From Thermoclostridium caenicola (GTDB lineage: Bacteria > Bacillota > Clostridia > DSM-8532), in contig NZ_FQZP01000022.1 in assembly GCF_900142095.1 (NCBI RefSeq), forward strand, positions 1 to 38,549: 38,549 nucleotides of DNA. Direction: 5' to 3'. The notes below the pieces were generated by a model. It was not told where the DNA came from. It worked only from the letters and a program-made list of their open reading frames with translations, and did no database searches. Made by a program: the position numbers and the translations under genes. Shown here one piece after another: positions 17,822 to 37,215 of the stretch (positions are counted from its first letter, which is position 1; the number at the start of each line of letters is the position of its first letter).

Positions 17822-18955
<1,134 letters not shown>

Positions 18956-19883: not shown

Positions 19884-20909
19884 CTAATAGACAAACATGG
19901 CATCACCGAAGCTGAAAAAGCGGTATTTCTGTTCAATGGCTTCCTGGTAGGCCCGCATGATGAAATCCCTTCCCGCAAAAGCGCACACCAGCATCATCAG
20001 CGTGGATTCGGGAAGATGGAAATTGGTGATCAGCGCGTCAACCGCCTTGAACTTATACCCCGGATAGATGAAGATATCGGTCTCGCCCTGCCCCGGACTC
20101 ACCATTCCCCGGTCATCTGCAACCGTCTCCAGTACCCGGACACTGGTGGTACCAACGGCAATCACGCGGTTGTGGCTTTCCCGGGCGCGGTTGATCATCT
20201 CGGCGGCCTTCTCCGACACGCTGTAGAACTCCTTGTGCATGTGATGCTCCAGAATGTTTTCCACCTTGACGGGGCGGAAGGTTCCCAGCCCGACATGGAG
20301 CGTCACCTCGGCCACTTCAACCCCTCTGGCCTTTAAAAGCTCCAGCAGTTCCTCGGTAAAGTGGAGCCCGGCTGTGGGTGCCGCCGCAGAGCCGTCCACC
20401 TTGGAGTAAACGGTCTGATAGCGCTCCCTGTCCTCCAGGTTCTCGATAATATAGGGCGGAAGCGGCATGATACCCACCTGGTCAAGGACCTCTTCAAAAA
20501 CCCCGTCATAATAGAATCGGACAATGCGGTTCCCCTCATCGGCTATCCTGAGGATTTCCGCCATGAGCCTGCCGTCCCCGAAAGCAAAACGGCTTCCCGG
20601 TTTGGCCCGGCGGCCCGGCTTGAGGATGACCTCCCATACATCGTTTTCAAGCCTTTTCAGGAGGACAAACTCGATCTTGCCGCCGGTACCCTCTTTCTCC
20701 CCCAGGAGCCGTGCAGGGATCACCCGGGTGTTGTTGATGACCAGGCAATCGCCTTTCCGGAGGTATTCCTGGATATCCCTGAAAACACGATGGGTCATGG
20801 TCTGCTTTTCGCGATCCAATACAAGAAGGCGTGACTGGTCACGCCTTTCCAACGGATGTTGTGCGATCAGTTCCTTAGGAAGCGGATACCAAAAATCTTT
20901 CAGGTTCAT
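19884..20909 (-). CDS. queA: S-adenosylmethionine:tRNA ribosyltransferase-isomerase
   Basis: A 341-residue enzyme that transfers and isomerises the ribosyl part of S-adenosylmethionine onto preQ1-modified tRNA, giving epoxyqueuosine. Family signatures include '[26 protein letters not shown]' at the N-terminus (residues 6 on), '[12 protein letters not shown]', '[11 protein letters not shown]' and '[15 protein letters not shown]' near the end. ATG 20909 follows AGAGGC; eleven extra in-frame residues upstream are unsupported. It acts directly after Tgt in the pathway. The gene lies 51 bases after htpG without an obvious terminator, so it may be cotranscribed with htpG. The DUF5668 gene separates it from tgt. 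Confidence 0.96.
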
Positions 20910-35837: not shown

Positions 35838-36395
35838 TTATTTTGCATCCGGGAAGATCAGAAACACATCCTTAACAGCATCCAGGGCGATTTTGGCAAA
35901 GTCCTCCACTGTCAGCCCCAGTTCGCTGCAGGACGCGATGCGTTCCCTGCTGATGTTCTTTTCAAATTCCGGATCGGCATAACATGCCATGATCCTGCCG
36001 GTATCCAAGGGGTTTATCGATTTGTCCGGCGTGCCTTGCACACAGGCCATGATCAGTTCAGCCATTGGTGACGCGCAATAAAGTGCCTTGTCAAGCTTTC
36101 TTCTTCTGGGAAGACCGTTGGCGGGGTTATGGGCCCTGACGGCATAGGCAATGGTCGGATCGAAGTCCAGGCTTTCCAGAATGTCTCCACCCATCTTCCC
36201 ATGCAAAGCCATGTTGCCGTTGATTCGCTCCCAGTCGATGTCGTGTACCAGGCCGGTTATCCCCCACATGTCCACGTCCTCGTGAAAGTGCCTGGCCAGG
36301 GATCTCATAATCGCTTCAACTGCCAAACTGTGCTGAATCCGCTCCTGACTCTCAATTCTCAGCTGTAAGGCTTCCAACGCCTTTTCGCGTTCCAC
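35838..36395 (-). CDS. HD domain protein (putative phosphohydrolase)
   Basis: A 185-residue protein of the metal-dependent HD hydrolase superfamily. The HD motif lies in 'GLVHDIDWE' (about residues 48-56), with preceding His residues in 'HSLAVEAIMRSLARHFHED' and a downstream 'HGKMGGDIL...AVRAHNPANG'. Relatives with this layout hydrolyse nucleotide or other phosphate esters; the substrate is unknown. The start is GTG 36395, preceded by GGAGGAAGATA. A promoter with an extended -10 lies at 36429-36456. It is divergent from the queT-like gene. Confidence 0.85.
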   Translation of the reverse strand: MEREKALEALQLRIESQERIQHSLAVEAIMRSLARHFHEDVDMWGITGLVHDIDWERINGNMALHGKMGGDILESLDFDPTIAYAVRAHNPANGLPRRRKLDKALYCASPMAELIMACVQGTPDKSINPLDTGRIMACYADPEFEKNISRERIASCSELGLTVEDFAKIALDAVKDVFLIFPDAK

Positions 36396-36533: not shown

Positions 36534-36562
36534 TTGATTTTATGCCCGGCGTAGGATACAAT
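36534..36562 (+). promoter_or_regulatory. Candidate promoter of the queT-like gene
   Basis: TTGATT (36534-36539) and TACAAT (36557-36562) are separated by 17 bp. The transcript would start near 36569, leaving a leader of about 150 bases that folds into hairpins. Confidence 0.5.
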
Positions 36563-36566
36563 TTTA

Positions 36567-36706
36567 GCCGTGGCGTCGCCACGGCCAGTTCGCAAAATCC
36601 TGGCCGGCTTCATCAGGCGACAGACATGTCCATTGATGGAGCCAACCAAAACTACGGAGCTTCCGGCGGCTCAGATGAAGGACCGGCGGCATGGTTTTCC
36701 ATGCTG
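36567..36706 (+). promoter_or_regulatory. Structured leader of the queT-like gene, candidate riboswitch
   Basis: This gene-free leader holds three strong hairpins: GCCGTGGC/GCCACGGC (36567-36585), a 10-bp stem GGCTTCATCA/TGATGGAGCC (36606-36643, one G-U pair), and CGGCATGG/CCATGCTG (36687-36706) just before the ribosome binding site. An alternative GGCCAG/CTGGCC stem (36583-36605) competes with the first. An A-rich AACCAAAACTA segment follows the second hairpin. QueT-family genes are often controlled by preQ1 riboswitches, but I cannot match this to a preQ1 class by eye. The lack of a T-run suggests control of translation if it is a switch. Confidence 0.4.
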
Positions 36707-36720
36707 AGAAAGGATGAATC

Positions 36721-37215
36721 ATGAAACTGAATACCAGAACCATTGTCCAGGCTGCGCTGATCGCGGCAGTCTACGCTGCAATGACCCTTCTTATCAAACC
36801 TCTGGCCTATGGGCCCATCCAGTTCAGGATTTCCGAAGTGCTCACCGTTCTCCCGGCCGTTCTTCCCTCTGCCATCCCAGGTGTCTTTATCGGCTGTATC
36901 CTTGCCAATTTCATCGGTGGTTTCGGCATGGTGGACATCGTCTTCGGCAGCCTTGCAACGCTGTTGGCCGGTATATTCACATGGCTCCTGAGAAAGCGCA
37001 GAATCCTTCTTCCCCTGCCCCCTGTCGTGTTCAACGGCCTTATCGTGGGAACCTATGTTTACCTGTTATACGACAAGACTTACCCCCTGCCGCTGACCAT
37101 GCTGTTCATCGCTATTTCGGAAGCCATCATCTGTTATGGTCTCGGCCTGCCCATGCTGTCCTTTATAAAAAAGAACAGGATGATCAGGGAGGCCCTGGGC
37201 ATTTCCGAGGAATGA
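36721..37215 (+). CDS. queT: QueT family transporter (queuosine precursor ECF S component)
   Basis: A 164-residue membrane protein with about five transmembrane helices. The family motif 'AYGPIQFRISEVLTVLP' lies at residues 29-45 and 'AISEAIICYGLGLP' at about 134-147. QueT proteins are substrate-binding S components of ECF transporters thought to import queuosine precursors such as preQ1 or queuine; the shared energising module would be encoded elsewhere. ATG follows AAAGGA. queA and tgt in the same window fit a salvage route into queuosine. The leader is structured. The HD-GYP gene follows after 78 bases and may be cotranscribed. Confidence 0.88.
   Translation: MKLNTRTIVQAALIAAVYAAMTLLIKPLAYGPIQFRISEVLTVLPAVLPSAIPGVFIGCILANFIGGFGMVDIVFGSLATLLAGIFTWLLRKRRILLPLPPVVFNGLIVGTYVYLLYDKTYPLPLTMLFIAISEAIICYGLGLPMLSFIKKNRMIREALGISEE

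Follow-up and report, generated by a model that had tools for sequence, protein, structure and literature searches.

The window, by which we mean the whole 38,549-nucleotide stretch of Thermoclostridium caenicola DNA analysed here, carries queT (Table 1), which encodes the subunit that binds the substrate in an ECF importer of queuosine precursors. Directly upstream lies a divergent gene for an HD-domain protein (35838–36395, minus strand), in a position that is apparently conserved in host-family leaders. A single promoter-like site was found in the region before queT, and its −35/−10 layout is kept in the genus, so that transcription of the leader should, judging from the sequence, start near position 36567. 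The leader folds at −70.5 kcal/mol against a mean of −56.4 kcal/mol for dinucleotide shuffles, all 200 of which it beats (z = −3.6).

A preliminary description of the locus had proposed a structured leader with three strong hairpins, the last of them near the ribosome-binding site, ahead of a QueT-family gene. This picture holds: the hairpins are present (P0, P3 and P6 in Table 1), and the last ends 4–5 nucleotides upstream of the Shine–Dalgarno site. The motifs CGTAG (36550–36554), CTACG (36652–36656) and AAAACTA (36648–36654), to which it had drawn attention, are likewise in place, but the closing stem envisaged between the first two has to be given up; with transcription expected to start near 36567, CGTAG would be left out of the RNA, as it precedes the −10 box, and it is also not conserved. 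The proposal of a queuosine-precursor riboswitch is the best-supported reading, and relatives place the class as preQ1 class I, type I.

Table 1. Features of the queT leader region. Counts of standard pairs refer to hand-picked arms and are thus biased towards structure.
Feature	Position	Strand	Basis or remark
Promoter TTGATT-17-TACAAT	36534–36562	+	Sequence scan; matching layout in genus relatives L002–L005
P0, 5′ hairpin GCCGTGGC/GCCACGGC	36567–36585	+	84/86 standard pairs, 16 relatives
P1 and loop, (G)CCAG-UUCGCAAAAUC-CUGG(C)	36584–36604	+	Top-scoring match across the window for model R2 (17.2 bits, E = 0.0043)
P3, hairpin in the linker between P1 and A-rich L3	36606–36643	+	Folding energy of the linker, −21.5 kcal/mol
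A-rich L3 and 3′ tail AACCAAAACUACG	36644–36656	+	Match ranked second across the window for R2, at 36643–36659 (11.6 bits, E = 0.13)
P4, GAGC (36657–36660) with GCTC (36669–36672)	36657–36672	+	66/68 standard pairs
P5, CCGGC (36663–36667) with ACCGG (36682–36686), crossing P4	36663–36686	+	84/85 standard pairs
P6, hairpin immediately upstream of the Shine–Dalgarno site	36689–36704	+	107/107 standard pairs, 17 leaders
Shine–Dalgarno site AAAGGA	36709–36714	+	6 nucleotides upstream of the ATG at 36721
queT	36721–37215	+	PF06177, 2.8e-46

To compare leaders, queT genes were gathered from 61 genomes and the leaders of the 30 best were read. The residues that define the class I, type I preQ1 aptamer are the G5–C18 pair, U6, U7, U16, C17, A30, C31 and the tail CUA, whereas types II and III of class I have AC rather than UC before the 3′ strand of P1 (PMC8752633, PMC11625349). 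In the window, the closing pair G5–C18 corresponds to 36588–36600 and U6 U7 (36589–36590) immediately follow the 5′ strand of P1, both being invariant in 23 leaders; U16 C17 (36598–36599), also invariant, form the UC before the P1 3′ strand. An A-rich L3 then leads into C31 U32 A33, with AAAACUA at 36648–36654 and A30, C31 and U32 at 36651, 36652 and 36653; AAACTACG in this L3/tail region is invariant in A1 and A2. Almost all host-family leaders read CCAG-UUCGCAA(A/U)AUC-CUGG, followed by a hairpin variable in sequence and length and then by (A)ACAAAACUACGG. P1, which is overlapped by the final bases of P0, is nearly invariant within the family; among insert-free relatives, three of its five pairs have changed on both sides, with 100% of cells paired. 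The candidate partners of P2, the pseudoknot between L1 and the tail, are invariant, and hence no covariation is seen either way. Nearest-neighbour folding, which is calculated without pseudoknots and ligand, prefers other pairings to P1 in the window (P1 probability of about 0 in L001).

A covariance model, R2, was trained exclusively on 23 queT leaders that have no insert and come from other families. Run unfiltered over the whole window, its two best matches are the P1 and L3/tail segments of Table 1, that is, the two aptamer halves in order, on the correct strand and before queT. The scores of the single halves are modest; R2 also detects the insert-bearing relatives. A second model, R1, was based on leaders of the sister genus that carry the insert; it scores 58.7 bits on the window (E = 2.1e-12) and also matches insert-free queT leaders in other families. 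We conclude from these sequence comparisons that the two segments in the queT leader very probably make up a preQ1 class I, type I aptamer.

The preliminary description had called for a search with the three preQ1 riboswitch models, and none of those in Rfam matches the window. The class I model (RF00522) aligns over its full length to the insert-free queT leaders, at about 20–32 bits, below its gathering cut-off of 39 bits; it misses the window because the insert splits a motif that is already short. Class II (RF01054) and class III (RF02680), which are rarer, also occur before queT and have extra helices, but between 36390 and 36760 their models fail to match even at E values of up to 10, and the leader shows class I signatures instead. 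With the type I RNAs of Carnobacterium antarcticus, H. influenzae and N. gonorrhoeae (RF00522), the window leader shares G5 followed by UU, UC before the P1 3′ strand, the A-rich L3, the tail ACUA and the location before a preQ1 transporter. It differs from them in escaping RF00522, in carrying a 38-nucleotide hairpin in the L3 linker and in having a tail that enters a second pseudoknot rather than a Shine–Dalgarno site.

Descriptions of class I preQ1 riboswitches present them as simple sensors of small size, built as an H-type pseudoknot. In the window, the linker from P1 to the A-tract spans 44 nucleotides with its hairpin, against 5–8 nucleotides in 45 short leaders, a short linker being usual in class I rather than an established requirement. 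A further 28 leaders have linkers of 16–52 nucleotides, nearly always with a hairpin (one additional row of this survey is an overlapping chance match). The insert occurs in all 25 intact queT leaders of the host family and in four leaders from unrelated families outside it (L065, L078, L109 and a match in G254); long linkers in unrelated families suggest that it probably arose more than once. Although the hairpin sequences diverge widely, 96 of 100 pairs over 17 leaders are standard, and the insert leaves the A-rich segment and the pocket residues untouched. The linker is described as varying in length and sequence in a type III relative with a crystal structure, where shortening it shifts affinity about four-fold at most (PMC10622847), which by analogy makes a hairpin insert at this point of a class I aptamer structurally plausible. 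A whole bacterial family and a few unrelated leaders thus bear a hairpin inside the preQ1 sensor, which suggests that the class I aptamer tolerates large inserts and explains why such switches are undercounted in Clostridia by the standard model. No description of a hairpin-bearing class I aptamer or of a P4/P5 platform was found in the open-access literature, in a search that excluded the main survey (McCown et al. 2014).

The conservation pattern also bears on whether the leader has decayed as a riboswitch, or is bound by a protein, and gives no ligand response. A few family members are without the tail or P1 (L019, L020 and L021), which would favour this reading; set against this, the core is more conserved than any other part of the leader, and the hairpin sequences turn over with compensation. 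Of the alternatives that we considered, we give this one the least credence.

Downstream of the aptamer, the tail CUACG runs without a gap into an H-type pseudoknot made of P4 (GAGC/GCUC) and P5 (CCGGC/GCCGG), in both the window's genus and its sister genus, from which the 17 leaders used to compare P4, P5 and P6 were taken. The first pair of P4 appears as G–C, A–U and U–A, and P5 as CCGGU/ACCGG and CCAGC/GCUGG; for each helix, 1 of 20,000 column shuffles, a test that ignores relatedness, was equally good. P5 has one mismatch in the window, C36667 opposite A36682. These compensatory changes are stronger evidence than the pair counts of Table 1. Absence of covariation in relatives had been named beforehand among the findings that would count against the proposal; it was not borne out, as pairing in P3, P4, P5 and P6 alike is kept by compensatory changes. 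Two further candidate pairings were rejected: a CTCAG/CTGAG stem around P6 (36670–36674/36704–36708) is present in the window and absent from relatives, and a role for the P4 3′ arm as a conserved anti-Shine–Dalgarno sequence is, judged by eye, inconsistent across the genus.

In sister genera, short-form queT leaders (L023, L024, L027 and L028) have the same aptamer with an inserted hairpin, but are without P0, P4/P5 and P6. Their tail, CUACGGAGG, holds the Shine–Dalgarno site itself, as GGAG at the position of P4. From this correspondence, the ancestral ribosome-binding site appears to have turned into P4, the working site now being about 50 nucleotides downstream. Two genera have thus added a second covarying pseudoknot and shifted the ribosome-binding site away, and P4/P5 together with P6 form a candidate new expression platform. 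That P4/P5 might be a second sensing or relay module, turning the leader into a composite riboswitch of two pseudoknots whose control logic is unseen in the preQ1 family, is a speculative idea that we consider doubtful.

The genomic context agrees with control by a queuosine precursor. The window also contains tgt (17840–18898, minus strand) and queA (19890–20903, minus strand), about 16–19 kb from queT, and QueH is encoded elsewhere in the genome, in which we found no QueC over the cut-off and no QueF. With TGT, QueA and QueH present and QueC and QueF lacking, the genome must take up either preQ1 or something that can be converted into preQ1, and feedback control of QueT fits such a salvage-only pathway. 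A preQ1 OFF switch on queT is ordinary logic. We favour, at a probability of roughly 0.88, the reading that the leader is an expanded riboswitch of preQ1 class I (type I) by which an abundance of preQ1 reduces QueT synthesis.

The nature of the ligand deserves separate consideration, as the substrates of QueT/QrtT transporters vary; one C. difficile QrtT imports preQ1, queuine and queuosine (PMC11130926). An aptamer core that binds preQ0, queuine or queuosine instead of preQ1 is nonetheless very improbable, given that every preQ1-contacting type I residue is kept and that the genome retains QueA and QueH, enzymes that work on the tRNA once preQ1 has been inserted.

For the sign of control, the rival arrangement is an ON switch, in which the ligand-free Shine–Dalgarno sequence AGGAU (36711–36715) pairs with AUCCU of the aptamer (36597–36601) and preQ1 frees it. 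This pairing dominates the predicted ensembles of L001, L003, L004 and L008, but it is strong in only those 4 of 17 leaders and absent or weak in most. Complementarity of this kind is expected anyway, since the aptamer dictates UCCU and the ribosome dictates AGGA, and an importer activated by its own cargo would be unusual. We regard the ON switch as improbable.

For the favoured preQ1 OFF switch, we infer the ligand, the stoichiometry, the sign of control and the coupling of the aptamer to the displaced ribosome-binding site, and propose the following sequence of events. PreQ1, probably as a stacked pair of molecules, the arrangement found in other type I RNAs, would bind between P1 and the tail and dock the AACCAAAACUACG tail onto P1 and its loop, while P3 would exit from the linker without touching the pocket. 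In the short-form relatives the docked tail would directly cover the Shine–Dalgarno site. In the window it would end at G36656, and the P4/P5 pseudoknot and P6 that follow would act as the expression platform before the Shine–Dalgarno site, relaying the docking signal in some way to AAAGGA. No intrinsic terminator was found in the leader region, P6 being without a U-run, and control is thus probably translational rather than transcriptional.

Beyond the host, R1 has matches in 38 of 391 genomes of the class; within the order, there is a single match per genome in 28 of 33. Among the R1 matches outside the family, 12 loci were read, and all of these precede queT, except L078, which lies before a YhhQ-like transporter recognised by eye. 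The aptamer core is found in queT or YhhQ leaders throughout Clostridia, and a loose pattern of the core sequence occurs in 114 of the 391 genomes, compared with 6 for a reversed control pattern. Relatives with public names are Clostridiaceae metagenome bins, such as DTU059. In queT leaders of Oscillospiraceae (L115, L117, L119 and L141) the same aptamer is followed by a GC-rich hairpin, another type of expression platform.

Other riboswitches occur near queT in relatives: an azaaromatic (yjdF) riboswitch in L012 (2189–2288, 86.6 bits) and a THF riboswitch in G058 (L026, 1301–1408, minus strand, 82.1 bits). In IMG/VR, the pattern has 50 matches, which, judged on P1 pairing and context, are mostly due to chance. 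In one viral contig (L275, 5512–5560), a gene for a predicted membrane protein is preceded by a plausible preQ1 aptamer of class I, type I, in short form.
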